Shown here piece after piece: positions 1,237-16,049 of a DNA stretch of 16,049 bases. The stretch covers positions 1-16,049 of the forward strand of contig JAICLN010000042.1 of the NCBI GenBank assembly GCA_025925615.1. Reading direction: 5' to 3'. Every line of letters begins with the position of its first letter. Positions within the stretch are counted from its first letter, which is position 1. The stretch comes from Actinomycetospora sp. GTDB lineage: Bacteria; Actinomycetota; Actinomycetes; Mycobacteriales; Pseudonocardiaceae. Below the pieces are notes generated by a model. The model was given only the letters and a program-made list of their open reading frames with translations, had not been told where the DNA came from and did no database searches. The position numbers and the translations under genes are program-made.

Positions 1237-1238
1237 TC

Positions 1239-2378: not shown

Positions 2379-2395
2379 CCCCTCCCCCGAACGGC

Positions 2396-2443: not shown

Positions 2444-2481
2444 CCGCTCCGCAGGCGCGCCGGGCCGCGCCGAGGCAGGGA

Positions 2482-3149: not shown

Positions 3150-3160
3150 GGTGTCCCTCA

Positions 3161-3203
3161 TGGATAGTGGCGCTGTCCGATAAACGGACAGTACTACTAT
3201 CCA
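3161..3203. promoter_or_regulatory. 43-bp imperfect palindrome in the divergent MerR/DUF4188 promoter region
   Basis: Arms 3161-3179 and 3185-3203 match at 16 of 19 positions around the AT-rich spacer ATAAA. The inner part is perfect: CTGTCCG (3173-3179), ATAAA, CGGACAG (3185-3191), 19 bp in all. The outer halves TGGATAGT and ACTATCCA are also perfect. It fills most of the space between the divergent starts at 3149 and 3231. MerR regulators classically bind dyads inside the promoter spacer, so autoregulation plus control of the divergent pair is the natural reading. Weak -10 candidates (TACTAT at 3195-3200 on plus; CACTAT within the left arm on minus) sit inside it. Confidence 0.7.
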
Positions 3204-3230
3204 AAGAAGGATGTCGAGAGGGGAGACCGG

Positions 3231-3884: not shown

Positions 3885-3887
3885 CGT
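3882..3887 (+). promoter_or_regulatory. Candidate -10 element of a leaderless promoter
   Basis: TAGCGT fits the actinobacterial TANNNT -10 pattern and overlaps the MerR stop codon. It ends 8 bases before ATG 3896, so transcription would begin at or next to the start codon. No convincing -35 is seen. The same word lies just upstream of the TetR gene. Confidence 0.35.
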
Positions 3888-3895
3888 CGGCGATC

Positions 3896-4810
3896 ATGAC
3901 GAGCATGCAGGCGCGGCCGGCGATCGACTTCCCCTCCCGCATCGGGGTCTGGTGGACCAGCGACGGCTGGACGATCGGGGCCGCGCAGGAGGTCGCCCGC
4001 GACATCGAGCGCATGGGCTACGGGTCGCTCTGGTACGGCGAGGCCTACGGCAAGGAGACGCTGACGCAGGCCGGCGCCTTCCTCGGCGCGACCGACCGCC
4101 TCGTCGTCGGGACCGGCATCGCGAACATCCACGCGCGCGACCCGATCGCCGCCGAGTCCGGCGCCCGCACCCTCACCGCGCTGCACCCCGGCCGCTTCGT
4201 GCTCGGGCTGGGCATCAGCCACGGCCCGCTGGTCGAGCGCGGCCGCGGGGGCACCTACACCAAGCCGCTCGCGACGACCCGGGACTACCTGGCGCGCATG
4301 GACGCCGTGCCCGAGCAGGTCGAGCCGGGGGTCCGCCCGGTCCGGCTGCTCGCCGCGCTCGGCCCGAAGATGATCGAGCTGTCCGGCAGCGCGGCCGATG
4401 GCGCGCACCCCTACCTGGTGCTGCCCCAGCAGACCGCGGTGACGCGCGCGGCGCTCGGGCCGGACAAGTGGGTCGTCTCCGAGCAGGCCGTGGCGCTCAC
4501 CGGGGTCAACGGGTCGACCGAGGAGGACGCCCTGCGCCGGGCCCACGCCCACCTCGAGATCTACTCGGGGCTGCCGAACTACCGGAACTCCTGGCTCCGC
4601 CAGGGGTTCGACGAGTCCGACCTGGTGCGCGGCGGCTCGGACCGGCTCGCCCGCGCCGTCGTCGGGATCGGTGACGCGACGACCGCGGCCGAGAGCCTCA
4701 AGGTCCACCTCGACGCGGGCGCCGACCACGTGCTCGTGCAGGCCCTCGGCGACAACCCGTTCGACGACCCGCGCCCCGCGCTGGAGGAGCTCGCCCGCTC
4801 GCTCACGTGA
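3896..4810 (+). CDS. F420-dependent LLM-class oxidoreductase (MSMEG_4141-like family)
   Basis: 304 residues with the luciferase-like TIM-barrel pattern: IGVWWTSDGW, DIERMGYGSLWYGEAYGKE, LVVGTGIANIHARDP, HPGRFVLGLGISHGPLVERG, YTKPLATTRDYL, LLAALGPKMIELS, GAHPYLVLPQQTA, LPNYRNSWLRQGF and AGADHVLVQAL. This matches the TIGR03620-type group (MSMEG_4141 family), predicted to use reduced coenzyme F420 for hydride transfer. Substrates of the group are unknown. Start ATG 3896 is 11 bp after the MerR stop; ATG 3905 is the alternative. No good Shine-Dalgarno site lies at either, and a -10-like TAGCGT just upstream suggests a leaderless transcript, with or without read-through from merR. Its stop lies in a hairpin shared with the convergent VOC gene. 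Confidence 0.93.
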   Translation: MTSMQARPAIDFPSRIGVWWTSDGWTIGAAQEVARDIERMGYGSLWYGEAYGKETLTQAGAFLGATDRLVVGTGIANIHARDPIAAESGARTLTALHPGRFVLGLGISHGPLVERGRGGTYTKPLATTRDYLARMDAVPEQVEPGVRPVRLLAALGPKMIELSGSAADGAHPYLVLPQQTAVTRAALGPDKWVVSEQAVALTGVNGSTEEDALRRAHAHLEIYSGLPNYRNSWLRQGFDESDLVRGGSDRLARAVVGIGDATTAAESLKVHLDAGADHVLVQALGDNPFDDPRPALEELARSLT

Positions 4811-4846
4811 ACGGATGTGGTCGCCGGGACGACCACATCCGTTCAC
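4807..4846. terminator. Perfect 17-bp hairpin overlapping both convergent stop codons
   Basis: Arms 4807-4823 and 4830-4846 are perfectly complementary around the 6-base loop CCGGGA. The TGA of the oxidoreductase (4808-4810) is in the left arm and the TGA of the VOC gene (4843-4845) in the right arm, so one structure terminates both convergent genes with no spare bases. Confidence 0.85.
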
Positions 4847-5223
4847 ATGGACCGGAGGTCCTTGCGGATCGGGTGGTCGGGCGGGACCTCGACGAGCACG
4901 ATCGCCCGGCCGTCGGGGTCGGCGATCCAGCACTCGCGCAGGCCCCACGGCTCGGTGCGGGTCCCGCGCGTGACCGGGGCCCCGGCCGCGTGCAGCTCGG
5001 CCTCGGCCGCGGCGACGTCGCGGACCTGGACCCACAGCGCGTCCGGCCCGATCGGACCGTCCGAGGACCGCCCGGACACCTCGAGGTAGCCGGTGCCGAG
5101 GAAGTAGACGACGCCCCCGGGGAACTCGCGGGAGACCGCGAGCCCCAGGGTGCCGCCGTAGAACGCCCATGCGGCCTCGGGCTCGCGGGGGCGGATGAGG
5201 ATCCTGCTGCTGAGCACCTCCAC
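4843..5223 (-). CDS. VOC (glyoxalase/bleomycin-resistance/dioxygenase) superfamily protein
   Basis: 126 residues from GTG 5223. The vicinal-oxygen-chelate fold is shown by RPREPEAAWAFYGGTLGLAV, GGVVYFLGTGYLEVSG, DALWVQVRDVAAAEAELHAA and WGLRECWIADPDGRAIVLVE; the final Glu of IVLVE is the usual metal-ligand position. The early position normally taken by His or Gln is an Arg/Leu stretch (SSRILIRP), so metal binding is not assured. Reaction unknown; such small proteins include lyases, dioxygenases and antibiotic-binding proteins. Start: AGGAGG lies 12 bases before GTG 5223, and length then fits the family. An ATG at 5268 would add 15 atypical residues. Divergent from the MFS exporter gene. Confidence 0.88.
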   Translation of the reverse strand: MEVLSSRILIRPREPEAAWAFYGGTLGLAVSREFPGGVVYFLGTGYLEVSGRSSDGPIGPDALWVQVRDVAAAEAELHAAGAPVTRGTRTEPWGLRECWIADPDGRAIVLVEVPPDHPIRKDLRSM

Positions 5224-5254
5224 GCGGGCGGCGCACCTCCTCGGTCGGTCGTGG

Positions 5255-5266
5255 GTGGTACACCAC
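5255..5266. promoter_or_regulatory. Small palindrome in the VOC/MFS divergent intergenic region
   Basis: GTGGT-AC-ACCAC is a perfect 5-bp inverted repeat with a 2-base spacer, between the divergent starts at 5223 and 5304. It could be an operator for either gene; nothing else supports this. Confidence 0.25.
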
Positions 5267-5303
5267 ATGCTTGGGGGCCGGTGGCAGGGGCATCCTGACG
5301 GGC

Positions 5304-7199
5304 GTGACCGCCGTCGACCACACCGAGAGCGCCGCGCGCCCGCCGGACGAGCCCGACCCCCGACGGTGGCGCGCGCTCGTCGTCTGCCTCGTCGCGGGGT
5401 TCATGACGCTGCTCGACGTCAGCATCGTCAACGTCGCGCTGCCCTCGATGCAGCTGGGCCTCGACGCGTCGTCGGCGGAGCTGTCCTGGGTGGTCTCGGG
5501 CTATGCGCTCACCTTCGGGCTGGTCCTGGTGTCCTCGGGCCGCCTCGGCGACGACCGCGGCCGGCGGAAGCTGTTCCTCATCGCGCTCGCGCTGTTCACG
5601 CTGACCAGCGCCGTCGCCGGCCTCTCGGTGGACCCGACGATGCTCGTCGTCGCCCGCCTCCTGCAGGGCGCGGCCGGCGGGATGATGAACCCGCAGATCA
5701 TCGGGGTCATCCAGCAGCTGTTCTCCGGTCGCGAGCGCGGCCGGGCCTTCGGCCTCTTCGGCGCCGCGATCGGCATCTCCACGGCCGTGGGCCCGCTCAC
5801 CGGTGGCCTGCTCCTGCAGTGGGGCGGGGACCTCGAGGGGTGGCGCTACGTCTTCTACGTCAACGTGCCGATCGGCATCATCGCGTTCCTGCTCGGGATG
5901 CGGCTGCTCCCACGCGACACCTCGGTGGCGAAACAGGACCGCCGACCCCTGGATCTGATCGGGGCCGTGCTGCTCGGGGCCGCCGTCGTCGCGCTGATGC
6001 TGCCGCTGGTGCTCTCCGAGCAGAATCCGTCCGGCGCCCCGTGGTGGCTGGTGGGCGTCGCGGTGCTGCTCCTGTTGCTCTTCGTGGCGTGGGAACGACG
6101 AGCGCGCCAGGTGCACGGGCATCCCCTCGTGAACTTCCGCCTGCTCCGCACCCGTAGCTACGCGCTGGGCACCACGCTCGGGCTGGTCTACTTCGCGGGC
6201 TTCACCTCGATCTTCTTCGTGCTCACTCTGTTCCTGCAGCAGGGCCGCGCCTTCACCCCGCTCGAGGCCGGTCTCGCGCTGACCCCGTTCGCGCTCGGCT
6301 CGGCGGTGTCCTCGGCGCTGGGCGGCCGGTGGGTGTCGCGGTTCGGCAAGCCGCAGATCGTCCTCGGGCTGCTCGCCGTGGCCGTCGGGCTCGTCGCCAC
6401 CGACGTCGTGCTGCGGCTGGACCCGGGCAGCGTGGGCTGGGCGATCGCCGGGCCGCTGCTCGTGGCGGGGATCGGCAGCGGCTTCGTCATCGCGCCCAAC
6501 CAGACGCTGGCCCTCGAGGAGATCCCCCCGCGGGAGGGCGGGACGGCGGCCGGGGTGCTGCAGACCGGGCAACGCGTCGGCTCGGCGATCGGCATCTCCG
6601 CCGTCGGGGCCGTGTTCTTCGGGTCGCTGACCTCGAGCCACGGCGACTGGTCGTCGTCGATCAGCTCCGGGCTCGTCCTCACCGTCGGGCTCGTCATCCT
6701 CGCCCTCGTGGTGGGGGTCGCCGACCTCGTCAGCGACCGCATCGTCCGCCGGCGCCGCGCCGCGGCTCCCGACGACGCCGCTGCTCCCGCTCCCGACGAC
6801 GCCGCTGCTCCCGCTCCCGGCGAGGCCGCCGCTCCCGACAACGCCGCGGCTCCCGACGACGCCGCGGCTCCCGCTCCCGCGAGCAACGGCACGGAGCCTT
6901 CCCGGGAGGGCACGCCCGAGGTCGCCGGCCGGGTGGTGCAGGCCGAGGACGGCCGGCCCGTGGCCGGCGCCGTCCTGACCCTCGTGGACGAGTTCGGCCA
7001 CCAGGCCGCGCGCACCGACGGCGCCGACGACGGCACCTACCGCCTCGGGGCCGCCGCGCCCGGGACGTTCCAGCTGGTGGTGCGCGCACCCGGACGTCGC
7101 CCGAAAGTGGGACGGGTGACGCTGCTCCGACGACGCAGCGAGTACGACGTCGTGCTGCAGGCGAGCGCCGTGGAGCACCTCCTGCCCGTGGTCGATTGA
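5304..7199 (+). CDS. DHA2-family MFS exporter with C-terminal carboxypeptidase-regulatory-like domain
   Basis: 631 residues. Residues 1-485 form a drug:proton antiporter of the DHA2 (14-helix) type: LDVSIVNVALPSM in helix 1, motif A GRLGDDRGRRK (79-89) and motif C-like GISTAVGPLTGGLL, with many hydrophobic helices. Such proteins expel drugs or secreted metabolites using the proton gradient. Residues about 486-530 are an AAPDDAAAPAP-type repeat linker, followed at about 539-625 by a beta-sandwich resembling carboxypeptidase-regulatory/Ig-like domains (EVAGRVVQAEDGRPVAGAVL, DDGTYRLGAAAPGTFQLVVRAPG). With 14 helices and an intracellular N-terminus, the extra domain would be cytoplasmic, unusual for this fold. 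Start GTG 5304 fits the usual short N-terminus; its Shine-Dalgarno site is weak, and a TTG at 5271 is possible. Divergent from the VOC gene. Confidence 0.9.
   Translation: MTAVDHTESAARPPDEPDPRRWRALVVCLVAGFMTLLDVSIVNVALPSMQLGLDASSAELSWVVSGYALTFGLVLVSSGRLGDDRGRRKLFLIALALFTLTSAVAGLSVDPTMLVVARLLQGAAGGMMNPQIIGVIQQLFSGRERGRAFGLFGAAIGISTAVGPLTGGLLLQWGGDLEGWRYVFYVNVPIGIIAFLLGMRLLPRDTSVAKQDRRPLDLIGAVLLGAAVVALMLPLVLSEQNPSGAPWWLVGVAVLLLLLFVAWERRARQVHGHPLVNFRLLRTRSYALGTTLGLVYFAGFTSIFFVLTLFLQQGRAFTPLEAGLALTPFALGSAVSSALGGRWVSRFGKPQIVLGLLAVAVGLVATDVVLRLDPGSVGWAIAGPLLVAGIGSGFVIAPNQTLALEEIPPREGGTAAGVLQTGQRVGSAIGISAVGAVFFGSLTSSHGDWSSSISSGLVLTVGLVILALVVGVADLVSDRIVRRRRAAAPDDAAAPAPDDAAAPAPGEAAAPDNAAAPDDAAAPAPASNGTEPSREGTPEVAGRVVQAEDGRPVAGAVLTLVDEFGHQAARTDGADDGTYRLGAAAPGTFQLVVRAPGRRPKVGRVTLLRRRSEYDVVLQASAVEHLLPVVD
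6771..6878 (+). repeat. In-frame tandem repeats encoding the Ala/Pro/Asp linker of the MFS protein
   Basis: Two identical 24-bp units (6771-6794, 6795-6818), two 18-bp variants (6819-6836, 6837-6854) and a near-identical 24-bp unit (6855-6878), each beginning GACGACGCCG or a close variant. Unit lengths are multiples of three, so copy-number slippage would keep the frame and only change linker length. Confidence 0.85.
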
Positions 7200-7219
7200 T
7201 CGTCACGCCTGCGGGGTAC
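7194..7219 (+). promoter_or_regulatory. Candidate stress-sigma (SigB/SigF-like) promoter for csbD
   Basis: GATT at 7194-7197, 16 bases, then GGGTAC at 7214-7219 resembles the GTTT-N15-17-GGGTA(T/C) pattern of actinobacterial general-stress sigma factors. A dyad TGACCCG-N7-CGGGTCA (7221-7241) follows, before the Shine-Dalgarno site. CsbD of Bacillus subtilis belongs to the sigma-B regulon, which makes the reading plausible. The -35 is imperfect. Confidence 0.4.
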
Positions 7220-7260
7220 CTGACCCGGTGACCACGGGTCACACCTTCAGGAGGCACGCC

Positions 7261-7434
7261 GTGTCCAAGGACGACAAGTTCGACAACAAGGCCCAGGAGC
7301 TCAAGGGCAAGGTCAAGGAAGCTCTCGGCGACGCCACGGACAACAAGGAGTGGCAGGCCGAGGGCAAGAAGGACCAGACCGCCGGCTCCCTCAAGAACGC
7401 GGGCGAGAAGATCAAGGACGCGTTCAAGTCCTGA
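7261..7434 (+). CDS. CsbD-family general stress protein
   Basis: 57 residues, highly charged and Lys-rich: KFDNKAQELKGKVKEALGDA, then EWQAEGKKDQTAGSLKNAGEKIKDAF. This is the complete CsbD pattern (KGKVKEAxG, then a second helix ending in GxxKxA). Members are small, helical, abundant proteins induced by envelope, osmotic or starvation stress; the molecular role is not known. Start GTG 7261 is set by a perfect AGGAGG at 7249-7254 with 6-base spacing; a GTG at 7228 would put the Shine-Dalgarno site inside the gene. The Lys codons are all AAG or nearly so, typical of high expression in this genome type. A strong hairpin follows. Confidence 0.95.
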   Translation: MSKDDKFDNKAQELKGKVKEALGDATDNKEWQAEGKKDQTAGSLKNAGEKIKDAFKS

Positions 7435-7452
7435 TCTCGGCGCCCCGGCGTC

Positions 7453-7487
7453 CGTCCGGGCCGTACCCCAGGGGTACGGCCCGGACG
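7453..7487. terminator. Hairpin between csbD and the convergent DMT transporter gene
   Basis: Arms 7453-7468 and 7472-7487 are perfectly complementary (16 bp, very GC-rich) around a 3-base loop. It is followed by a mixed GT/CT stretch. It lies between convergent stops at 7434 and 7504 and can serve both strands. Confidence 0.85.
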
Positions 7488-7503
7488 TGTGTCGTCCTCC
7501 GGC

Positions 7504-8361
7504 TCACACCCGCTTGAGCGGCGGTCGCGCCACGCCGTCGTCGCCGGCCAGCGAGGCCTGCGCGGGCGAGCGGGCCAGCACCACGACCCCGCCCAGCGCG
7601 AGCACCAGCCCCACCACGAACGGCACCACCCACCCGCTGCGGATGCCGTCGCCGAGCAGGATCAGCCCGAGCAGCCCCGGCGCCAGGGTCTCGGTCACCG
7701 CGAGCACCGCGACGACGGGTCCGACCGCACCCCGCGACAGCGCCACCGTGTAGAGGCCCAGACCGAGCGCGGCGTAGCCCAGCAGGGACCACGCCACCGG
7801 GTCGCTGATCACGGTCCGGACCACCTCGCCGACCGGGCCGTCGAGGTCGACGAGCCGCACCGCGACCGCCGTGCCCCCGAAGCTCAGCCCGGCGAGGAAC
7901 GCGATCGGCACGGACCGGCGGCTCCGCAGTGCGGTGCTGATACCGACGACGGCGAGGACCACCAGCACCACCAGGAGCGCGATCGTGCCGCCGAGCCCGG
8001 AGTGCGGCAGGTCCCGGGTCTCCGCACTGCCCACGAGCAGGCCGAGCCCGACGATGTTGGCGCCGGCCGCGAGCAGGTCCACCCGGCGCAGCGGCGTGTC
8101 GAACACCCAGTGCGACGCGACGACGGTGATCGCCACCTGCCCGGAGACGATCGCCTGCACGGCCACGATCGGCATGTAGCGCAACGCCAGCACCGTCAGG
8201 ACCCAGCCGAGGATGTCCAGCAGCAGGCCGCCGAGGTAGAGCGGGCTCGTGACCACCCCGGCAGCGTGCGTGGCCCGGCGGGTGGCCATCGCCTCGAGCA
8301 GGGCCGCCCCGGCGTTGGCCGCCGCGGCCACGAGTGCCGCCGCGAGGCCGAGCACCAGCAC
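7504..8361 (-). CDS. DMT/EamA-type multidrug or metabolite transporter permease
   Basis: 285 residues, almost wholly hydrophobic, with about nine or ten helices arranged as two related halves. Segments seen include VLVLGLAAALVAAAANAGAA, LGGLLLDILGWVLTVLALRY, VAVQAIVSGQVAITVVASHW, GGTIALLVVLVVLAVVG, VAVLAVTETLAPGLLGLILL and GWVVPFVVGLVLALGGVVVL. The EPxx-like region of the second half (VTETLAPGLLG) sits where DMT transporters carry the conserved E-P motif. Substrate unknown. Start: GTG 8361 has a perfect AGGAGG with 6-base spacing (8368-8373). The frame stays open to 8625, but that extension is Arg/Ser-rich and non-coding in character. Convergent with csbD. Confidence 0.9.
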   Translation of the reverse strand: MLVLGLAAALVAAAANAGAALLEAMATRRATHAAGVVTSPLYLGGLLLDILGWVLTVLALRYMPIVAVQAIVSGQVAITVVASHWVFDTPLRRVDLLAAGANIVGLGLLVGSAETRDLPHSGLGGTIALLVVLVVLAVVGISTALRSRRSVPIAFLAGLSFGGTAVAVRLVDLDGPVGEVVRTVISDPVAWSLLGYAALGLGLYTVALSRGAVGPVVAVLAVTETLAPGLLGLILLGDGIRSGWVVPFVVGLVLALGGVVVLARSPAQASLAGDDGVARPPLKRV

Positions 8362-8428
8362 GCGCTTCCTCCTGGGTCCGCCGTCGCCACGCCGAGATCT
8401 CTTCGGACATCGGCAGCCGAGCGACCGC

Positions 8429-8447
8429 CCGGGCAGAGTGTGCCCGG
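8429..8447. promoter_or_regulatory. Hairpin or dyad upstream of the DMT transporter gene
   Basis: CCGGGCA-GAGTG-TGCCCGG: perfect 7-bp arms around 5 bases, about 70-85 bases before the GTG at 8361 on the minus strand. It could be an operator or a leader-RNA hairpin; there is no further evidence. Confidence 0.25.
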
Positions 8448-8541
8448 AGTCCGCTTCCGCCGCGTGCCGTCGGGGGTCGACGACACGCCGACCGGTTACC
8501 CGGTGACGGCGCTGGGACGGTGACGACGAGGTGGAGGTGCG

Positions 8542-9080
8542 GTGACGGCCGGCTGGTGGATCGTCGTCGGGACGGCGGTGGTCGCGCTGGTGGTGCTCGT
8601 CGCCGCCCTGGTCGTCCGGGCACACCGGGGGTCCTGCCGGAGCTGGACCTCGGCCGCGGCGACCCCCAGCGCCGCCGTGTGGGATCCCTCACCATCCGCG
8701 GGCTCACGGGAGCCGTGGAGCGCCCCCGTCCGCCGGTCGGGACCCGGCTGGCCGAGGAGACCTCGACGTCGCTGCCGTCCGGGCACTCCGTGATGGCCGT
8801 CCCGGGCTCGGGCTGTCGGTCGTGGCCGTGCTCGCCTCGCGCCGCCCCGCGTACGGCGGAGCGGGGTGCGGGCGGCAACCGTGCTGGTCGGGGCCCTCCA
8901 CGCCATCGCGATCGGGCTCGACCGGGTGTATCTCGGCGTCCACCGGACGACCGACGTCACGGTCGAGTGGCTGCTCGGTGGGGCCTCCTGGCCCTCACCA
9001 TCGGATCTTCTGTGATCCTCGAAGCGCGCGTGGCGGAGATTCATCCCTCGGAAGGAGTATCTGCGGCACCGCTACGCTGA
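8542..9080 (+). pseudogene. Frameshifted remnant of a PAP2-superfamily phosphatase
   Basis: No single frame encodes the protein, but the motifs appear in order across frames. Frame 1 from GTG 8542 (GGAGG just upstream) gives a membrane segment WWIVVGTAVVALVVLVAALV. Frame 3 gives VERPRPPVGT and LPSGHSVMA (PSGH at 8775-8786), the first two PAP2 phosphatase motifs. Frame 2 gives GLSVVAVLASRRP. Frame 1 again gives GALHAIAIGLDRVYLGVHRTTD (8881 onward), the third motif with its histidine and aspartate. Frame 3 then gives LLALTIGSSVIL, a terminal helix, up to a stop at 9078-9080. At least four frame changes are needed, so the gene is dead unless the assembly is faulty. The region between the first helix and the RP motif also seems shortened. 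Intact relatives are membrane lipid-phosphate phosphatases. Confidence 0.75.
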
Positions 9081-9114
9081 CGCGCTGCCGAGGATCTCGG
9101 GCTCGAGCGGTCCG

Positions 9115-9120
9115 TAGCGT
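9115..9120 (+). promoter_or_regulatory. Candidate -10 element upstream of the monooxygenase-lactamase operon
   Basis: TAGCGT (TANNNT type), 65 bases before GTG 9186, with no clear -35. It is followed by an inverted repeat at 9131-9156. Confidence 0.25.
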
Positions 9121-9130
9121 CACTCGAATG

Positions 9131-9156
9131 CGCTGTCTAGGGTTTTCGCGACAGCG
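9131..9156. promoter_or_regulatory. Inverted repeat upstream of the FAD oxidoreductase, possible operator
   Basis: CGCTGTC (9131-9137) and GACAGCG (9150-9156) form perfect 7-bp arms with a 12-base, relatively AT-rich spacer. The repeat is 30 bases before GTG 9186 and just after a -10-like TAGCGT. Position and symmetry suggest a repressor site in the leader. Confidence 0.35.
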
Positions 9157-9185
9157 CCGTCCGACGGGGAACGGGGGTCCCAGAG

Positions 9186-10328
9186 GTGGAGCACGTGCCG
9201 CTCCTGGCCCTCGGCGCCGGGATCGACGGCCTCGCGGCCGCCCTGTGCCTCGCGCACCAGGGCTTCCCCGTGCAACTGCTGGAGCGCGGCCCGGACCCGG
9301 AGTCGCTCGACGACGCGGGCCCGTCGGGCTCGATGGTCCTGCGGCCCTCGGCCGCCCGGGTCCTGCAGGGCCTCGGGCTGCTCGAGACGCTGCGACCGAG
9401 GGCGCTGGAGGTGCAGCGCTACTGCCACCTCGACGCCGCCAGCGGGCAGCCGCTGCGCAAGGTCGAGCTCGGCGACGTCGCCCGGGCGCGCTTCGGCTAC
9501 CCGTGCCTGATCGTGACCCGCCGCGATGTCCGCCGCGCCCTCGCCGAGGCCTGTGCCGCCGACGAGATGATCGGCGTGCACTACGAGTCGCGCCCCACCG
9601 CCGTCGAGGACATCGGGGACGCCGCCCTGGTGACCCTGGAGGACGGCGCCCAGTGGCGGGCCGAGGCGCTCGTGGGTGCTGACGGGGCGTCCAGCCGGGT
9701 GCGGGGCCTGCTCGAGGCCGGGACGGGGGCGCTCTCGCCCACTTTCGTCGTCCGCCGCGCCACGGTGGCCTCCAGCGCGGGTGAGCCGGCGAGCCCGGAG
9801 CTGCGGGTGTGGTCGGGTCCGCAGCTGCAGGCCATGCGGCTGCCCTCGCCCCATGGCGGCGCCGAGATCGTCCTCGTCATGCGCGCCGACCTGCCGCCGG
9901 CCGAGCGGGAGTGGGTCGTCTCCCGACTGGAGCCCGAGCTGCGACGCTCCGTGAGCGCCGTCGTCGCCCGCGAGCCCGAGCAGGTCCTCGCCCACCAGCG
10001 GCCGCTGTCGCGCTGGACCCGCAACCGCCTCACCGTCCTGGGCGCGGCCGCCCAGCCGCTCCTGCCGCACGCCGGCGAGGAGGAGAACCAGACGCTGCTC
10101 GACGCGCACGCCCTCGGTGCCGCCTTCGACCGCTCGGACGGCCGCATCCTCCCCGGCCTCGAGGGCTACGAGACGCTGCGCGCCCCGGCCCGCGCCGCCT
10201 GTGCCGCACGGGTGGCCGAGTTCGCCGCCCTCTCCCACGCCGAGGGCCTCACCCGGCGCCTGCGCGACCGGCTGTGGGCCCGCGAGGCCGTCGACGAGGT
10301 CGCGGAGGTGCTCGGCGAGGTTCCGTGA
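9186..10328 (+). CDS. FAD-dependent monooxygenase-like protein with degenerate FAD motifs
   Basis: 380 residues with the layout of class A flavoprotein hydroxylases. A Rossmann dinucleotide motif LGAGIDGLAAALCLAHQGF lies at residues 9-27 and ends in an acidic strand (VQLLERG). A DG-type motif GADGASSRVR is at 164-173. The third fingerprint, normally GDAAHP, reads GAAAQP (286-291): the Asp that contacts the FAD ribityl chain and the His are both replaced, and the following segment is AGEEENQTLLDA rather than GQGANQ. FAD binding or hydroxylation may therefore be altered. Substrate unknown. GTG 9186 begins only 9 residues before the motif, so the start is near-minimal; the Shine-Dalgarno site is weak. 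The lactamase-like gene follows after 19 bp and is probably co-transcribed. Confidence 0.88.
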   Translation: MEHVPLLALGAGIDGLAAALCLAHQGFPVQLLERGPDPESLDDAGPSGSMVLRPSAARVLQGLGLLETLRPRALEVQRYCHLDAASGQPLRKVELGDVARARFGYPCLIVTRRDVRRALAEACAADEMIGVHYESRPTAVEDIGDAALVTLEDGAQWRAEALVGADGASSRVRGLLEAGTGALSPTFVVRRATVASSAGEPASPELRVWSGPQLQAMRLPSPHGGAEIVLVMRADLPPAEREWVVSRLEPELRRSVSAVVAREPEQVLAHQRPLSRWTRNRLTVLGAAAQPLLPHAGEEENQTLLDAHALGAAFDRSDGRILPGLEGYETLRAPARAACAARVAEFAALSHAEGLTRRLRDRLWAREAVDEVAEVLGEVP

Positions 10329-10347
10329 TCGGGGTGAGGATGCGGAC

Positions 10348-11598
10348 ATGACCTCCTCCCCGCTCGCCGTCGAGAAGGACCCCGCCGCCCTGGGGTTCGA
10401 CCCGTCCCGGTTGTCCCGCATCGACGACCACTTCCGCCGCTATGTCGACGACGGTCGGCTCGCGGGCTGGCAGGTCGTCGTCACCCGCCGCGGGCACGTG
10501 GTGCACTCCAGCGAGGCGGGGCAGCGCGACGAGGAGGCCGGCCTGCCGGTCGAGCCGGACACCCGTTGGCGGATCTACTCGATGTCCAAGCCGATCACCT
10601 CGGTCGCCGCGCTGATCCTCTGGGAGCGCGGCGAGCTCGAGCTCACCGACCCGATCAGCCGCTGGCTCCCCGCGTTCGCCGAGCCCCGGGTCTACGTCCG
10701 CGGATCGAGTGGCGCGCCCCTGACGATGCCCAGCCCGGAGCCGATCCGCGTCTGGCACCTGCTCACCCACACCGCCGGGCTGACCTACGGCTTCCACCAC
10801 GCCCACCCGATCGACGAGCTGTACCGCGCGGCCGGCTTCGAGTGGGGCGTCCCCGCCGGGCTCGACCTCGCCGGCTGTGTCGACGCCTGGGCCCGCATGC
10901 CGCTGGTGCACACCCCCGGCACGGAGTGGAACTACAGCCACGCCACCGACGTCCTCGGGCGCCTCGTCGAGGTCGTCTCGGGCAGGTCCCTCGACGCGTT
11001 CCTCGACGAGGAGATCCTCACCCCGCTCGGTATGACGGCCACCGCGTTCGCCGCCGACGACCCCTCCCGCACCGCGGCGCTCTACGCCCGCACGGCCGAC
11101 GGCGCCCGGGTCCGGGCGGACGCCTTCGGGGCGCCGTTCCTCGAGCCCCCGACGTGGCTCTCGGGCGGCGGCGGCCTCGTGTCCACCGCATCGGACTATC
11201 ACCGCTTCACCCAGATGCTGCTGCGCGGCGGTGAGCTCGACGGCGTCCGCGTCCTCGGCTCGCGCACCGTGGCCTACATGGGACGCAACCACCTGCCCGG
11301 TGGCGGCGACCTCACCGAGGTCGGGCGGCCGCTGTTCGCCGAGATGCCCTTCGACGGGGTCGGGTTCGGGCTCGGGGTCTCCGTCGTGCTCGACCCGACG
11401 GCGTACCGGACGCTCTGCAGTGCAGGTGAGATGGCCTGGGGCGGCGCCGCGAGCACCGCGTTCTGGGTCGATCCCGTCGAGGAGATCACCGCGCACTTCT
11501 TCACCCAGTTGATGCCCTCGAGCGCCTATCCGATCCGGAGCTCGCTGCGCCGGCTGGTGTACCAGGCCCTCGTCGATGAGCCGCCGCGAGCAGTCTGA
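10348..11598 (+). CDS. Serine hydrolase, class C beta-lactamase/EstB-like family
   Basis: 416 residues. Seen: the active-site S78-M-S-K81 (RIYSMSKPITSVAALIL), the tyrosine motif Y196-S-H in TEWNYSHATDVLGRLVE, LTHTAGLTYGF between them, and AWGGAAST (W364-G-G), which replaces the KTG box in this esterase-like subgroup. There is no signal peptide, so the protein is probably cytoplasmic. That argues for an esterase, transesterase or amidohydrolase acting on a small metabolite (as EstB or LovD relatives do) rather than a secreted penicillin-destroying enzyme. Start: ATG 10348 with GTGAGGA seven bases upstream. It lies 19 bp after the flavoprotein gene in the same operon, so the two may modify the same compound (inference). 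Confidence 0.92.
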   Translation: MTSSPLAVEKDPAALGFDPSRLSRIDDHFRRYVDDGRLAGWQVVVTRRGHVVHSSEAGQRDEEAGLPVEPDTRWRIYSMSKPITSVAALILWERGELELTDPISRWLPAFAEPRVYVRGSSGAPLTMPSPEPIRVWHLLTHTAGLTYGFHHAHPIDELYRAAGFEWGVPAGLDLAGCVDAWARMPLVHTPGTEWNYSHATDVLGRLVEVVSGRSLDAFLDEEILTPLGMTATAFAADDPSRTAALYARTADGARVRADAFGAPFLEPPTWLSGGGGLVSTASDYHRFTQMLLRGGELDGVRVLGSRTVAYMGRNHLPGGGDLTEVGRPLFAEMPFDGVGFGLGVSVVLDPTAYRTLCSAGEMAWGGAASTAFWVDPVEEITAHFFTQLMPSSAYPIRSSLRRLVYQALVDEPPRAV

Positions 11599-11617
11599 AC
11601 CGCCGAACCAGAACGCA

Positions 11618-11648
11618 GCGTGTGCTCGTCGTGAGCGGCCGTACACGC
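11618..11648 (+). terminator. Weak bulged hairpin after the hydrolase gene
   Basis: GCGTGT (11618-11623) with ACACGC (11643-11648), and inside them GCTC/GAGC around a 5-base loop, leave a 6-base bulge on one side. It lies 20 bases after the stop at 11598. Marginal as a terminator. Confidence 0.25.
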
Positions 11649-11693
11649 AGTGTCATGTTCCTGAGGAGATGGCGGGTCACCCTGAGAGAGGGC

Positions 11694-11721
11694 TGCACAG
11701 CACACCCCCGCTCTGTAGCGT
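11694..11721 (+). promoter_or_regulatory. Candidate promoter of the 99-aa protein gene
   Basis: TGCACA (11694-11699), 16 bases, TAGCGT (11716-11721). The leader to ATG 11768 would be about 40 bases. Confidence 0.4.
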
Positions 11722-11767
11722 CTGCGGCTGCCATCGGGGAGCCGATGACACGGGGCGAGGGAGACGG

Positions 11768-12067
11768 ATGAGCGTGACGCCGGGGCCACGACGACGACCT
11801 GCCGGGCCGCACCCGGAGCGCGGCGCCACGGACACGGCCGGGGTGCCCGAGCCGCGGTCCGGGCCCGAACCGGGAGGAACGGGGATCGTCTCGGGCGTCC
11901 CCTCCCAGCGGACCGCGGCGGACGTCTACCGGGTCAGCGAGGACCAGGTGCACCGCGCTCGGATGGCGGTCGCCCGGAACGCGGTGGACTCCGACGACTG
12001 CCGGGAGCTGCTCGACATGCTCGGGCTGATCGGCGAGCCCGGCGAACCACCGCCGGTCCGTCGCTGA
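11768..12067 (+). CDS. Unrecognised 99-aa protein with conserved-looking C-terminal helical segment
   Basis: I do not recognise a named family. The first 50 or so residues are Pro/Gly/Arg-rich and disordered-looking. The last half, from PSQRTAADVYRVSEDQVHRA through MAVARNAVDSDDCRELLDML, reads as two or three charged amphipathic helices with a single cysteine and looks like a genuine small domain. No signal peptide or membrane helix. Start: ATG 11768 with AGGGAG four bases upstream; the frame is open from 11576, but that part is not protein-like and overlaps the preceding gene's end. A separate promoter-like pair lies upstream. It is 86 bp before the TetR gene, same direction; a functional link is not shown. 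Confidence 0.65.
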   Translation: MSVTPGPRRRPAGPHPERGATDTAGVPEPRSGPEPGGTGIVSGVPSQRTAADVYRVSEDQVHRARMAVARNAVDSDDCRELLDMLGLIGEPGEPPPVRR

Positions 12068-12138
12068 GCGCTGGGCCGCTGATCCCCGGGCCGCTGATCG
12101 CTGCGCCGGGGGGACACGCCCTCCACATCTGCGCGCCG

Positions 12139-12144
12139 TAGCGT
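12139..12144 (+). promoter_or_regulatory. Candidate -10 of a leaderless promoter for the TetR gene
   Basis: TAGCGT ends 9 bases before ATG 12154, placing the expected transcription start on or next to the start codon. No Shine-Dalgarno sequence is present between them, as expected of a leaderless mRNA. The -35 is not evident. Confidence 0.4.
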
Positions 12145-12153
12145 GGGTTCGCC

Positions 12154-12861
12154 ATGGTCGGAGTCCCCGAGTCGCCCGCGTCCACGCGGCCCGCACCCGA
12201 CGTCGGGACCCGCCCGGGCTCGCGTCAAGCGCGGGCGGTGGCGACCCGCGAGTCGATCCTCGACGCGGCCGCCCACGAGTTCGCGGCCGAGGGCTACCAC
12301 GCGGCTGCGCTGTCCAAGATCCTCGAACGCAGCGGCGTCACCAAGGGCGCGATGTACTTCCACTTCGCGTCCAAGGAGGCGATGGCCGTCGCGGTCGCCG
12401 GTGTCATGGAGGCCCGGCTCCCGGAGGTCGTGGCCGAGTGGGAGGCCGGTGGTCTCGACCCGCTGACGACGGCCGTGCACGTCGCCGTCGGGTACGCCGC
12501 GCTCCTGCGGGACGAGGTGGCGTGCCGCGCCGGGCTGCGCGTGGTCAGCGAGGGCGCCCTCGGGGCCTCCCGGGCCCGCTGGCCCGCCGACTTCTGGGAG
12601 GCCGTCCACACCGGCCTGCTCGGCCGCGCGCGGGCCGAGGGGTCGCTGCGTCCGGGGATCGACCCGGTGGAGCTCGCCCGGGCGGTCGTGGCCCTCGGGA
12701 CGGGCGTCCGGTCCGTCTGCCTCGCGGCCGGGGAGTTGGCCGCCCTGCGCGACCGCACCGCGGCCGCCTGGACGGTGCTCCTCGCCGGCGTCGCGGAGCC
12801 CGCCTGGCTCGAGCGCTGGGAGGCCGCCGGCGGGATGGCGACGGTTCCCGGGGGTGGCTGA
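12154..12861 (+). CDS. TetR-family regulator resembling gamma-butyrolactone receptors (ScbR/ArpA type)
   Basis: 235 residues. After a 25-residue polar tail, RAVATRESILDAAAHEFAAE GYHAAA leads into the helix-turn-helix (about 50-70) and the hallmark GVTKGAMYFHFASKEAMA (61-78). YFHF followed by SKEA is the wording typical of butyrolactone-receptor repressors, which release DNA on binding a diffusible signal. The C-terminal ligand domain (RAGLRVVSEGAL, FWEAVHTGLLGRARAEGSLR, AAWTVLLAG) is of normal length. No butenolide/butyrolactone synthase (AfsA-like) gene is visible in the window, so it is an orphan receptor or pseudo-receptor here. Starts at ATG 12154 with a -10-like TAGCGT directly upstream. 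Targets are not deducible; no gene shares its promoter. Confidence 0.9.
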   Translation: MVGVPESPASTRPAPDVGTRPGSRQARAVATRESILDAAAHEFAAEGYHAAALSKILERSGVTKGAMYFHFASKEAMAVAVAGVMEARLPEVVAEWEAGGLDPLTTAVHVAVGYAALLRDEVACRAGLRVVSEGALGASRARWPADFWEAVHTGLLGRARAEGSLRPGIDPVELARAVVALGTGVRSVCLAAGELAALRDRTAAAWTVLLAGVAEPAWLERWEAAGGMATVPGGG

Positions 12862-12931
12862 CGCGGGCCCCGGACCCGTCCCGTAGTGTTGCCGACGCAC
12901 CCAACGGGCAGGTCGCTGGTGCTGGAGGGGG

Positions 12932-12937
12932 TAAGGT
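12932..12937 (+). promoter_or_regulatory. Candidate -10 of the tRNA cluster promoter
   Basis: TAAGGT (TANNNT) 27 bases before the tRNA-Glu 5' end. A second candidate, TAGTGT, is at 12884-12889. Neither has a clear -35. Confidence 0.3.
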
Positions 12938-12963
12938 CCTCGCGTCATTCGGAGGAGCGCCGA

Positions 12964-13036
12964 GCCCCCATCGTTCAGTGGCCTAGGACTCCGCCCTTTC
13001 AAGGCGGCAACGCGGGTTCGAATCCCGTTGGGGGTA
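12964..13036 (+). tRNA. tRNA-Glu (anticodon UUC)
   Basis: 73 bases. Acceptor GCCCCCA pairs with TGGGGGT (13029-13035, one G-U). The anticodon stem CCGCC/GGCGG encloses the loop CTTTCAA with anticodon TTC at 12998-13000. The T-arm is GCGGG-TTCGAAT-CCCGT. CCA is not encoded. First of three tRNAs in the order Glu-Asp-Phe, an arrangement common in actinobacteria. Confidence 0.97.
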
Positions 13037-13080
13037 CGCAGTAGGCTGGCCTGTGGTGGTCAGAGTGAACTGAAGATCAA

Positions 13081-13154
13081 GGCCCAGTGGCGCAGTTGGT
13101 TAGCGCGTCGCCCTGTCACGGCGAAGGTCGCGGGTTCGAGTCCCGTCTGGGTCG
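13081..13154 (+). tRNA. tRNA-Asp (anticodon GUC)
   Basis: 74 bases. Acceptor GGCCCAG pairs with CTGGGTC (13147-13153), discriminator G. The anticodon stem TCGCC/GGCGA encloses CTGTCAC with anticodon GTC at 13115-13117. T-arm GCGGG-TTCGAGT-CCCGT. It lies 44 bp after tRNA-Glu. Confidence 0.97.
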
Positions 13155-13196
13155 CACAGTCGTGCACACGTCGTGAGTGGGCGTGGTCGCCGACAA

Positions 13197-13270
13197 GGCC
13201 AGGTAGCTCAGTCGGTACGAGCGATCGCCTGAAAAGCGATAGGTCGGCGGTTCGACCCCGCCCCTGGCCA
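13197..13270 (+). tRNA. tRNA-Phe (anticodon GAA), integration target
   Basis: 74 bases. Acceptor GGCCAGG pairs with CCTGGCC (13263-13269), discriminator A. The anticodon stem ATCGC/GCGAT encloses CTGAAAA with GAA at 13231-13233. All arms are intact, so the gene is functional. Its 3' part from the anticodon loop onward is the left copy of a 46-bp direct repeat whose right copy is at 15056-15101, showing that an element integrated here and restored the tRNA. Confidence 0.97.
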
Positions 13271-13273
13271 CCT
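13228..13273 (+). repeat. attL: 46-bp direct repeat, left copy (3' part of tRNA-Phe)
   Basis: Identical base for base to 15056-15101 (offset 1828). It begins at the 5' edge of the anticodon loop and runs 3 bases past the tRNA 3' end. Confidence 0.93.
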
Positions 13274-13280
13274 CTTCTCA

Positions 13281-13517
13281 TCAGCGGTTTTGTTGGTTCG
13301 ACTCGGTGGCTGGTCGCGGCACCTTCAGCAACGACTTCAGCAACCGCCCTCGCAGGTCCTCCCACTCGATCGCGTCGAGCGCCTGGCGCATGGCGTCGAG
13401 GTTGGTGTGGGGTAGTGCGACATCGCGGGGCCTCTCGAAGAGGCCGTCTCGCGCGTGTGACCCGGGCGTGGACGCGCGGCATCGCCACAGGACCCGGCGG
13501 GGTCTGTGGTGGGCGCG
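13281..13517 (-). pseudogene. Coding-like C-terminal fragment next to attL, unknown family
   Basis: The minus-strand frame is open from 13517 to TGA at 13281-13283. The last 50 or so codons have strong third-position G/C and read as plausible protein: FERPRDVALPHTNLDAMRQA, then LDAIEWEDLRGRLLKSLLKV and a polar tail ending SNQQNR. The upstream half is not protein-like, and the only internal ATG (13391) would give just 36 residues. I read it as the 3' end of a larger, deleted gene of the element. The position beside attL is where integrase genes often sit, but the residues do not match a tyrosine-recombinase C-terminus, so no identity is claimed. Confidence 0.35.
13323..13344 (+). repeat. Tandem CTTCAGCAAC pair inside the left end (candidate arm-type sites)
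   Basis: CTTCAGCAAC at 13323-13332 and again at 13335-13344 (12-bp period), 50 bp from the left 46-bp repeat. The same word, in the same orientation, recurs near the right end. Confidence 0.55.
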
Positions 13518-13969
13518 TCAGAAGGGCCGTCTCCGGGCCCCTGGCGGTCAGAGCAGCGAGACGGCGGCGAACGGGATCAGGGAGGGAAGGGACGGAAGCC
13601 TTCGGCGACCAGGCGCTCCGCCCTGGACCAGGACACCGACCTCAGGAGAGGGGGCCCGGCGAGCGCGTGGGTCGGGAGTGCAGTGGTGGCCCGTACGGGG
13701 TCTCCCCCTCGTCGGCGCTTCCGGGGTCTGACAGTCCGATCGCACCGCCGCAAGGGCCACCGTCAGGAGCTGAGCCAGCGGCGGGGTCGAGGAGATGGCC
13801 CTTGCCCCGGCACGACCGACCTGTCCGAGGCGACCCCGCCCCGCCGAGGGAGAAACCCTGACACCCACGCGTGCGGTTTCGGGCCGCGACGGTGATGGGC
13901 AGCCCTGCCGCGCTGGTGGCCGGAGGCTGCTAGCCGGGGCGGCCCTGGCGTTCGTTGAACAGCCAGCAT

Positions 13970-14002
13970 CTCCGGGGCCGTCATCGTTCTCCGGTCCCGG
14001 AG
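13970..14002 (+). other. Hairpin upstream of the GAF-ANTAR gene
   Basis: CTCCGGGGCCG (13970-13980) pairs with CGGTCCCGGAG (13992-14002), 11 bp with one G-T pair and an 11-base loop, 100 bases before GTG 14103. Could be a terminator for upstream transcription or a leader structure. Confidence 0.35.
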
Positions 14003-14102
14003 CCTCACAGGCCGCGTCCCGCTGCGTTCGGTGCGGGTCCGGACACGACGGATGCGACGCGGGCGCCGCCCCCCTCGACACGCGGCGCCCCCACGGTGAA
14101 TC

Positions 14103-14906
14103 GTGCGGTGTGTGCAGAGCCCACCCCCCGCCCCACCACCGGCAGCAGACGAGGTCACGGAGCCCGGCCAGCAGGAGCGGGTGATCCGCGCGCTCCGCTC
14201 GGCCGCCGAGGAGATGGCGCGCGGCTCCAACCTGCGCGACATCGACAGTGTCCTGGACAGCATCGTCATCCACGCCGTGGAGACCGTGCCGGGGGCCGAC
14301 GCCGGCGGGATCACCGTGGCCGAGAACTCCAAGATCGAATCCAGTCACACCACGGTCCATGCCATCGGCGAGCTGGACCAGCTGCAGACCGAGCTGGACG
14401 AGGGGCCCTGCATCACTGCGGCCACGAACCCTCCGCGTGGCGGCGTCATCGTGATCGACGACCTCGCCGGGGACGACGCCGAAGCCTGCCCGCGCTTCGC
14501 CAAGGCCGCGGTCGACGCCGGGTACCGGTCCATGTGCTCGACCCAGCTCTCCACCGATCACGTCGGGTACCGCGCAGCCCTGAACCTCTACTCCCCCACC
14601 CCCGCCGCCTTCACCACGGAGGCCCAGTTGGTCGCCGCTCTGTTCGGCGCCCAGGCCGCCGTGCTCCTCTACGGCAGCGAGACCGCGGCACACCTGACGC
14701 GAGCCATCGACAGCCGCGACGTGATCGGCCGTGCCAAAGGCGTCCTGATCGAGCGCTTCGGCGTCGACGACTCCGAGGCCTTCCAGATGCTCGTCAAGTC
14801 CTCCCAGGACACCAACCTCAAACTCGTCAACGTCGCCACCTGGCTGGCCCAGGACGCCGTCGAACGCGGCAGAGGAAGAGACAGGAAGGGCGGCCGCGGC
14901 GACTGA
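14103..14906 (+). CDS. GAF- and ANTAR-domain regulator (RNA-binding antiterminator type)
   Basis: 267 residues from GTG 14103 (a stop at 14097-14099 bars any earlier start; GTG 14112 or 14181 is possible, as no good Shine-Dalgarno site is seen). A Pro-rich tail (1-20) is followed by a GAF domain at about 45-190 (IVIHAVETVPGADAGGITV, LDEGPCITA, YRSMCSTQLS, ALNLYSPTPAAF) and an ANTAR domain at about 198-250 (LTRAIDSRDVIGRAKGVLIE through EAFQMLVKSS and LVNVATWLAQ). Family knowledge: GAF senses a small molecule or redox state, and ANTAR binds paired RNA hairpins to prevent termination. The protein has no histidine-kinase partner nearby. Codon use is less G/C-biased than neighbouring genes (AGT, CAT, GAA and AAA codons appear), fitting its place as cargo of the tRNA-Phe island. 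Targets unknown. Confidence 0.92.
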   Translation: MRCVQSPPPAPPPAADEVTEPGQQERVIRALRSAAEEMARGSNLRDIDSVLDSIVIHAVETVPGADAGGITVAENSKIESSHTTVHAIGELDQLQTELDEGPCITAATNPPRGGVIVIDDLAGDDAEACPRFAKAAVDAGYRSMCSTQLSTDHVGYRAALNLYSPTPAAFTTEAQLVAALFGAQAAVLLYGSETAAHLTRAIDSRDVIGRAKGVLIERFGVDDSEAFQMLVKSSQDTNLKLVNVATWLAQDAVERGRGRDRKGGRGD

Positions 14907-14942
14907 CCGGCACGATGCGGCAGGCGTCGCGAAGGCCCTTCC

Positions 14943-14966
14943 GTACTTCAGCAGTACTTCAGCAAC
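14943..14966 (+). repeat. Tandem GTACTTCAGCA pair inside the right end (candidate arm-type sites)
   Basis: GTACTTCAGCA at 14943-14953 and 14954-14964, perfect 11-bp tandem copies, 90 bp from the right 46-bp repeat. Shares ACTTCAGCAACCG with 13334-13346 at the left end, same orientation. Confidence 0.6.
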
Positions 14967-15055
14967 CGGCCGGTGTCCGGAGGAGTCCACGGACGTTCGA
15001 AGAGCACGTTTTCCCTGCTCAGGCGACGCAGACAAGCTGAGTAGCCCTCCGGGCA

Positions 15056-15101
15056 CCTGAAAAGCGATAGGTCGGCGGTTCGACCCCGCCCCTGGCCACC
15101 T
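15056..15101 (+). repeat. attR: 46-bp direct repeat, right copy (partial tRNA-Phe)
   Basis: Exact copy of 13228-13273. It lacks the acceptor 5' strand, D-arm and 5' anticodon stem, so it is not a tRNA gene. Bases beyond both edges do not match the left copy, which defines the repeat limits. Confidence 0.93.
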
Positions 15102-15251
15102 TCCGTGCCGAACGACGCTCCCGGTGCACGACTGATCGAGACAGTTCGGCGACGATGTCGCGGTCACGGTGAAGATCGGAACCTCGTGAGCGTGTCGCGT
15201 CGAATCTTGCGCATGTCGCTCCCGACGTCGTGATCATGGTCGGGACGTGGG

Positions 15252-15286
15252 GCAGGGCGCGGCCCGCTCGCCGGACCGCGCCCTGC
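15252..15286 (-). terminator. Hairpin terminator of the LGFP-repeat gene
   Basis: GCAGGGCGCGG (15252-15262) pairs perfectly with CCGCGCCCTGC (15276-15286) around a 13-base loop, 18 bases past the stop of the minus-strand gene. Confidence 0.75.
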
Positions 15287-15303
15287 ACCCGTCGTCAGGA
15301 CCC

Positions 15304-16049
15304 TCAGCGCTGGGTGACCGACGTGGTGTTCTTCGCCTGGTTCCAGACGATCGAGCCCCGCACGAAGTCATTGCGCTTCCCGCCGGTCACGGCGTACTCG
15401 TCGGTGGTCGGGTAGCCGAGCGTCGAGCGCTCCGCCCCGAGCTGGGTCCACTTCGTGCGGATGGCGTTGAAGATCGTGTGAGCCCCGGTGGCCGTGGACC
15501 AGTAGATCGATCCGTTGCCGACGAAGGTGGCGTACCGGCCGGCGCCGTCGGCCGTCGCGGTGATGTCGCGGGTCGGGTAGCCGAGGGGGCTCTTCGTCTC
15601 GCCCAGGGCCAGCCACTTGTCGCGCAGCGGCCCGAGCAGGCCGTAGACCGCGTTGGTCGAGGGGTTCCAGTAGAGCCCGCCACCGCCGGCGACGGAGAAG
15701 TTCGTGGCCTTGCCCTTGCCGTCGGCGGTGACGAGCTCGTCCGAGGTCGGGAACTTGAGCGTCCCGCCCGGTCCGCCGAGCGCCTTGTAGCGGGTGAGGA
15801 TCGGGCCGCGGACCGCGTGGGCCCCCGTCGCGGGCGACCAGTAGATCGAGCCGCCGGCGTAGTCCTGGGTCCGCCCGCCGGCGACGTCGGTGACCGCCGT
15901 CCTCGGCGCCCCGAGGTAGGACGAGGCCCCGCCGAGCTGCTGGTAGTACGCGGTCACCGGGTCGGTGGCCGGGGGCGTCGTGGTGGTCGGGGGCACGGTC
16001 GTCGTGGGGGGCGCGGTCGTCGTGGGGGGCGCGGTCGTCGTCGGGGGCG
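15304..16049 (-). CDS. LGFP-repeat protein, cell-envelope type, 5' end beyond window
   Basis: The minus-strand frame is open to the window edge, so the N-terminus (expected signal peptide and any enzymatic domain) is missing; 247 complete codons before the stop are visible. The visible part starts with a PPTTTA-type Pro/Thr linker and continues with four LGFP repeats of about 52-58 residues each. Landmarks are QQLGGASSYLGAPR, KALGGPGGTLKFPTSDE, LALGETKSPLGYPT and TQLGAERSTLGYPTTDE, each followed by a GSIYWS/GGLYWN/GSIVWN strand. Known for the family: LGFP repeats occur in envelope-associated actinobacterial proteins such as corynebacterial mycolyltransferase and predicted amidases or nucleases, and are thought to hold them in the cell wall. 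The last repeat is imperfect and closes the protein. No partner gene is visible. Confidence 0.92.
   Translation of the reverse strand, partial: PPTTTAPPTTTAPPTTTVPPTTTTPPATDPVTAYYQQLGGASSYLGAPRTAVTDVAGGRTQDYAGGSIYWSPATGAHAVRGPILTRYKALGGPGGTLKFPTSDELVTADGKGKATNFSVAGGGGLYWNPSTNAVYGLLGPLRDKWLALGETKSPLGYPTRDITATADGAGRYATFVGNGSIYWSTATGAHTIFNAIRTKWTQLGAERSTLGYPTTDEYAVTGGKRNDFVRGSIVWNQAKNTTSVTQR
15997..16049 (-). repeat. 18-bp tandem repeats coding the Pro/Thr linker
   Basis: Two identical 18-bp units on the plus strand (15997-16014, 16015-16032) and a third, diverged and cut by the window edge (16033-16049). Each codes APPTTT-like residues of the LGFP protein, in frame. Confidence 0.85.

Follow-up and report, generated by a model that had tools for sequence, protein, structure and literature searches.

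We identify a 1.8-kb island in the tRNA-Phe gene of an Actinomycetospora strain that is very probably an internal deletion derivative of an actinomycete integrative and conjugative element (AICE) integrated at this gene. The island lies in a stretch of 16,049 nucleotides (contig JAICLN010000042.1, positions 1 to 16,049 of the forward strand, assembly GCA_025925615.1), the whole of which is called the window here. The genome, G000, is a 3.5-Mb assembly in 382 contigs that is about 60% complete, and it was compared with 17 other Actinomycetospora genomes (18 with G000) and with a wider set of 297 family genomes. The assignment to the AICEs follows from homology, because both ends of the island, a stub of an integrase gene, a non-coding block and matching pairs of arm-type repeats all have counterparts in elements that carry an integrase. 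On sequence grounds, the island is best described as an AICE derivative resembling a cis-mobilizable element (CIME), in which the sites acting in cis are kept and the functions acting in trans are lost. An earlier note on this DNA had proposed a relic or a non-autonomous element; that proposal is supported and becomes more specific, as an internally deleted AICE.

The island is bracketed by a repeat that is identical at 46 of 46 positions (attL core, 13228–13273; attR core, 15056–15101; both on the plus strand), the left copy comprising the 3' half of tRNA-Phe (GAA; 13197–13272, plus strand, ARAGORN) and one further nucleotide. This target gene is the third in a tRNA-Glu, tRNA-Asp and tRNA-Phe cluster (12964–13272). 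The earlier note had described a perfect 46-bp repeat running from the anticodon loop to just past the tRNA end and had read it as the footprint of integration by a tyrosine recombinase. The repeat is as described, and its reading as a footprint is borne out by integrase-bearing elements of G006 and G012, which use the same tRNA-Phe and core (44 bp exactly in common with G006, and the whole of a 37-nt core pattern with G012). No tRNA gene is present at the right copy: ARAGORN finds none there and the Rfam tRNA score is 17.6 against a cut-off of 29. The further suggestion that the identity of the right copy favours a recent insertion is weak, since zero differences in 46 bases exclude little; as a date for the insertion, this identity was rejected for offering too few sites.

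The elements at the same tRNA-Phe in G006 (A. cinnamomea; L048 2194–15155) and G012 (A. lutea) measure 13.0 and 13.6 kb, respectively. In both, an intact tyrosine integrase gene of about 410 codons adjoins tRNA-Phe, the left end and the right end are common with the window, and a protein with an FtsK/SpoIIIE domain is encoded, its Pfam score being exactly at the cut-off in G006 and above the cut-off in G012. A GntR-UTRA regulator and a Rep protein with a REP_ORF2-G2P domain (PF23343, of the rolling-circle replication type) are further products of the G006 element; its predicted gene set of integrase, FtsK/TraB-like protein, GntR regulator and rolling-circle Rep is that of an AICE. Rep proteins with the REP_ORF2-G2P domain are likewise carried by G010 and G003a, and the homologous Rep of G010 has a RepSA match below the cut-off. 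An HTH_3 protein is present in the G012 element. The 89 bp between the right arm-type repeats and attR in the window resemble the right ends of G006, G010 and G012. As a separate observation, among the cargo genes of the G006 AICE are one for a Shedu SduA-like protein, one for a Nudix protein and one for a DEAD helicase, which suggests a role of the cargo in anti-phage defence.

A trace of the deletion lies next to the left end. A stub of 21 residues (13353–13415, minus strand) is 86% identical to amino acids 390–410 of the G006 integrase; it represents about the last 20 of 410 codons, and the tyrosine taken as catalytic is lost. The claim in the earlier note that the 1.8 kb holds one clear gene and no recombination gene therefore stands insofar as no intact integrase gene is present, but the 3' end of one survives. 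The stub is joined, in a different reading frame, to codons 1–5 of rep (MSHYP; 13409–13423, minus strand, with the ATG at 13423), which were recognised by alignment with other elements, the start being deduced from relatives whose rep open reading frames (ORFs) begin with MSHSP, MSPSP or MSSYP (MSHF is internal to a longer ORF). The deletion junction falls at about 13409–13414. A single deletion from about codon 391 of the integrase gene to about codon 5 of rep would produce this arrangement; if the parent resembled G006, it would have removed about 12 kb and taken the integrase, transfer, regulatory and replication genes. It would have spared the cis-acting ends, that is, the att cores, the probable integrase arm sites and the non-coding block that precedes rep. 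Between this block and the right arms lies a cargo gene for a GAF-ANTAR regulator, at a position that in G003a also holds a small gene.

Just inside each att core lies a pair of arm-type repeats, which, like the integrase stub and the non-coding block, the earlier note does not mention. The left pair, CTTCAGCAAC-GA-CTTCAGCAAC (13323–13344, plus strand), consists of the 10-mer CTTCAGCAAC twice, 12 bp apart, and lies 50 nt inside the core; the right pair, CTTCAGCAG-TA-CTTCAGCAAC (14946–14966, plus strand), has a period of 11 and lies 89 nt before the core. Each is the best self-match of its end in a scan at offsets 8–16. With up to two mismatches, the 12-mer ACTTCAGCAACC occurs four times in the window, three of them in the arms, against 0.31 expected, and none of 200 shuffles reached four, in a chance control that was devised after the repeat had been seen. 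Both ends were read in 12 elements of the same integrase family, which occupy tRNA-Phe, tRNA-Thr or tRNA-Pro sites (the window, G006, G008, G012a, G012b, G001, G016, G003a, G003b, G011, G015a and G015b); the left end of G014 was unreadable. At the left ends, period 12 is best or tied in 10 of the 12, second in G016 and recognisable by eye in G012a. At the right ends, period 11 is best or tied in 11 of the 12; the two ends of G008 come from separate contigs, and its right unit is truncated where the contig stops. Against a universal rule, the right ends of L099 and L101 have a period of 12; these are contigs with integrase matches at 36–37%, and their left ends were not read.

Within each element, the left and right arm sequences agree. 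The type TGCACC is found in G006, G003a, G003b, G011 and G015a, a TGTAGC-like type in G012a, G012b, G016, G001 and G015b, and the type TTCAGC in the window and G008. For ten elements (without G012b and G015b), the summed left-right arm distance is 4, against a shuffled mean of 20.8, and 37 of 200,000 shuffles were as low; without G001, whose ends equal those of G016, 144 of 200,000 shuffles reached the observed distance. The arm units were chosen by eye, and there is non-independence among related elements, so that this statistic is strong but not exact. Known tyrosine-integrase systems have integrase arm-binding sites, and the simplest reading of the arm pairs is that they are probably such sites. 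The exact left arm pair occurs in only G000 and G008 among the 297 family genomes, and with up to one mismatch it is again confined to these two among the 18 genus genomes. One-mismatch matches in 11 other family genomes were dismissed as being at chance level, as a reversed control pattern also matched 11 genomes. A rule of this kind (left period 12, right period 11 and an element-specific sequence) may make it possible to link islands that lack an integrase to the integrase from which they came.

Upstream of rep, comparison and folding reveal a conserved, structured, non-coding block of about 440 nt (approximately 13420–13865, no strand assigned). In G006, the block immediately precedes rep and adjoins the right end on its inner side. 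A search of the 297 family genomes returned block matches in 17 of the 18 genus genomes, G000 included (65 bp only in G004 and none in G007), and a 25-base block pattern was found in 12 stretches of the genome contigs, all from Actinomycetospora. Weak matches in two other genera (G249 and G277) lie inside long ORFs and were rejected, and the block pattern has no match in viral contigs. Rfam searches of 13150–15300 (E values up to 5) and of four loci (at gathering cut-offs) returned no family for the block, the sole overlapping match being far below the cut-off. A coding role was ruled out, as every frame is interrupted in at least one of the eight copies and the insertions and deletions are not all multiples of three. 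The block precedes G2P-type Rep genes in the same orientation, and in G003b a gene for a Rep_1-like protein (PF01446, slightly below the cut-off); this neighbour excludes an origin specific to one Rep. In consensus folding, eight copies gave z of about −5.2 on either strand (60 column shuffles), and 25 copies gave −4.1 on the plus and −8.6 on the minus strand (40 column shuffles), which favours the minus strand. Double changes occur at 9 of 56 plus-strand pairs; few of them are independent, because several covarying pairs split along two clades. We regard the block as a candidate replication origin (double- or single-strand) or structured rep leader and, more generally, consider it a strong candidate for a structured RNA or origin not described before, so far observed in a single genus.

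Two features weigh against the main reading. No rep gene was identified in the tRNA-Phe element of G012, and, against one simple deletion, the cargo in the window sits between the block and the right arms, so that recombination between tandem elements is possible. Under such tandem accretion, two adjacent AICE-related elements would have contributed, one the left end and block and the other the cargo and right end, brought together by recombination or deletion. The arm repeats directly follow the block in 7 of 12 named copies, whereas 1.08 kb separates them in the window, and G012 offers a precedent: immediately past its right att (L051 15409–15527 / L156) stands a second left end, composed of TTCAGC-like arm sequence and an apparent integrase fragment, an arrangement typical of tandem accretion. 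A scan of 11.5 kb of G012 sequence, with up to 11 mismatches allowed, found no third att copy in this orientation. On the other hand, between 13273 and 15056 the window contains no third copy of att, and the integrase-bearing elements G003a, G003b and G011 also have about 0.4–0.5 kb between the block and the right arms, in G003a with a small DUF2510 gene. Tandem accretion is thus a minority view that we would still give appreciable weight. That a repeated tRNA fragment without any mobile-element history arose by coincidence or misassembly can be virtually dismissed: the assembly is indeed fragmented and incomplete, but the integrase stub, the start of rep, the block and the two arm pairs follow one another as they do in integrase-bearing elements of other species.

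In gene content, the island has nine ORFs of at least 80 aa, five of which were covered by the Pfam scan, and among these five only 14103–14906 (plus strand) gave a match. This gene, within the 1.08 kb between the block and the right arm pair, encodes a predicted GAF-ANTAR regulator of 267 aa with a GTG start as listed; ANTAR is above the Pfam cut-off and GAF_2 just below it. Relatives of the protein (E ≤ 1e-30) are found in all 18 genus genomes but reach no more than 58% identity across most of the length; one partial match, over 144 residues, has 64%. A locus search for the cargo protein in the genome contigs gave 168 pattern matches, of which none was confirmed. The cargo seems to be an ordinary member of an expanded family of regulators, with no source found among the 18 genus genomes.

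In these contents the element resembles a CIME. A CIME lacks integration and transfer genes and keeps attL and attR (PMC5704250). The window element has retained both att sites, and only the 21-aa stub of its own integrase remains. Transfer genes are lost, as judged from the Pfam scan of five of nine ORFs, with the GAF-ANTAR gene as the sole match. Descent from an integrative and conjugative element is indicated by ends, an integrase stub and a rep start in common with elements that carry integrase, rep and FtsK-domain genes. The element is not itself an AICE, as no integrase, Rep or FtsK/TraB-type transfer protein is found in it, and it is not an integrative and mobilizable element, which would encode its own integrase.

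Comparison with the other genomes points to a site that is occupied in some strains and empty in others. With the 37-nt core pattern and up to three mismatches, two copies of the core were found in 6 of the 18 genus genomes (G000, G005, G006, G008, G010 and G012) and one in the remaining 12; in G002, the single core has mere fragments of an integrase and a block beside it. The island is followed on the right by a gene for an LGFP-repeat protein (15304–16047, minus strand, Pfam), which runs off the window. Among the eight single-copy genomes with long loci, this flank follows the single tRNA-Phe in four, within 0.4 kb in G003, G007 and G016 and after 2.1 kb in G015, and the LGFP gene is, to judge from this synteny, an ancestral neighbour of the tRNA cluster. 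Synteny thereby supports an apparent occupied/empty polymorphism at tRNA-Phe; the short sequence between the genes cannot be aligned. The prediction of an empty site in related genomes held in this form, but an exact base-for-base join was not obtained, as the intergenic bases differ. Small islands without an integrase are also found at tRNA-Phe in G010 (1.6 kb; L049 2332–3894), with SnoaL-like and tautomerase genes and a DUF1330-like reading frame, and in G005 (0.94 kb; L054 1989–2886), with a cupin gene. Their right cores are one and two bases off the 37-nt pattern, and each island has TTCAGC-type arm sequence at one end; none was recognised at the other. Besides, a DUF1330 gene lies just outside the G005 island, resembling the frame within the G010 island.

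The element is either dead or could move solely with a helper. We think that it is probably immobile in this host and clearly prefer an immobile relic to an active element; that it can still be mobilised seems doubtful, although the identical cores and the presence of all four arm units speak for it. The island could be excised by a TTCAGC-type integrase provided in trans or by a helper AICE in tandem, and would then be a CIME in effect. Several observations argue against mobility today. The earlier note had called for a search for a tRNA-Phe-specific integrase elsewhere in the genome, and no cognate was found: in the approximately 60%-complete G000, there are six Phage_integrase matches, none on the window contig, and the closest match to this integrase, the stub aside, is 36% identical. 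In G008, which alone among the other family genomes searched has the exact left arm pair, the integrase is broken (aa 211–409 only, in two frames). The stop codon of the stub, present in G006 and G008, is now a sense codon. The window block breaks 11 otherwise invariant columns, compared with 2–7 in seven close copies, and 15 compared with 4–12 in a longer alignment. Among all 25 copies, it breaks 4, whereas the integrase-bearing G012a and G003a break 11 and 5; these breaks are weak evidence of decay because two other copies deviate more. Nor does the number of broken base pairs in the window block stand out (3 of 56 on the plus and 2 of 66 on the minus strand, where other copies reach 7 and 6).

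An active, non-autonomous mini-element, moved in trans by an integrase encoded elsewhere and spreading the GAF-ANTAR cargo between strains, would account for the perfect att cores and for two arm pairs of one type, and the islands of G010 and G005, with other cargo at the same tRNA-Phe and TTCAGC-type arm sequence at one end, would be its analogues. Yet the partial genome has yielded no helper integrase, the left arm pair is confined to G000 and G008 as described above, and ten full-length integrases reach 62% or more, of which the eight with left arms read carry other arm types. Moreover, this mini-island was not found in a second genome, and the arms at the other end in G010 and G005 went unrecognised; we therefore consider such an element improbable. 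Still less probable is a more elaborate picture, in which the window, G010 and G005 islands would be small-cargo cassettes at tRNA-Phe, comparable to miniature inverted-repeat transposable elements and moved in trans by one TTCAGC-type integrase, and the approximately 440-nt block, which accompanies two Rep classes and has no Rfam match, would be a new structured origin or rep-leader RNA that allows replication after excision.

For an immobile relic of an AICE, known systems offer several points of comparison. The AICE pMEA100 of Amycolatopsis uses a tRNA-Phe gene. By type of replication, it is not the closest relative: the pMEA100/pSE211 clade replicates with RepAM and/or Prim-Pol (PMC3218068), whereas the relatives of the window element carry a PF23343 Rep and the window itself has no rep. 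Like other CIMEs, the window element has lost integrase and transfer genes, keeps attL and attR and derives from a larger element, and a tandem arrangement exists at the same tRNA in G012; it differs in its very small size (1.8 kb), in keeping arm-type repeats and a rep-upstream block and in that mobilisation is putative. XSAM1, a 42-kb CIME beside the AICE pSAM2 (PMC4891641), and TR1, a 20-kb CIME of Streptomyces scabiei (PMC8369830), are similarly actinobacterial CIMEs tied to an AICE or another integrative and conjugative element, but they are described as 20–42 kb long and next to a helper, whereas the window has no adjacent helper. Defective AICEs (DAICEs) have been found by their retained traB, and mobilisation by a helper was suggested for them (PMC9513070); remnant AICEs are known in Frankia (PMC3218068). 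Both are decay products of AICEs, as is probably the window element, and a traB-based search would miss the latter because no traB was found there. CIMEs and defective and remnant AICEs are thus already in print, and what is new here is a very small CIME-like member; a partial survey of the literature on AICEs and islands showed no mention of Actinomycetospora, which is not proof of absence. The island indicates which parts of an AICE may outlast the loss of all its own genes, namely att cores, arm repeats and the rep-upstream block, and islands of this kind, being without a signature gene, are invisible to integrase or traB searches. The arm-site rule and the block are by-products worth following.

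Some minor features lie close to the ends of the island. Just outside attR, a dispersed repeat of about 65–70 nt (15169–15241) has eight further listed matches in the partial G000 assembly (five at 86–91% identity and three shorter or weaker), and the tRNA-Thr elements of G014 and G016 have similar sequence close to their copies of the block. Directly 3' of tRNA-Phe, a GC-rich hairpin (GCCCACCAGCGGAAACGCTCGGTGGGC-like) was recognised by eye at several single-copy sites and element left ends (L048 2194–2235, L053 and L051), as if the elements supplied a replacement terminator for the tRNA gene; in the window, this hairpin looks degraded.

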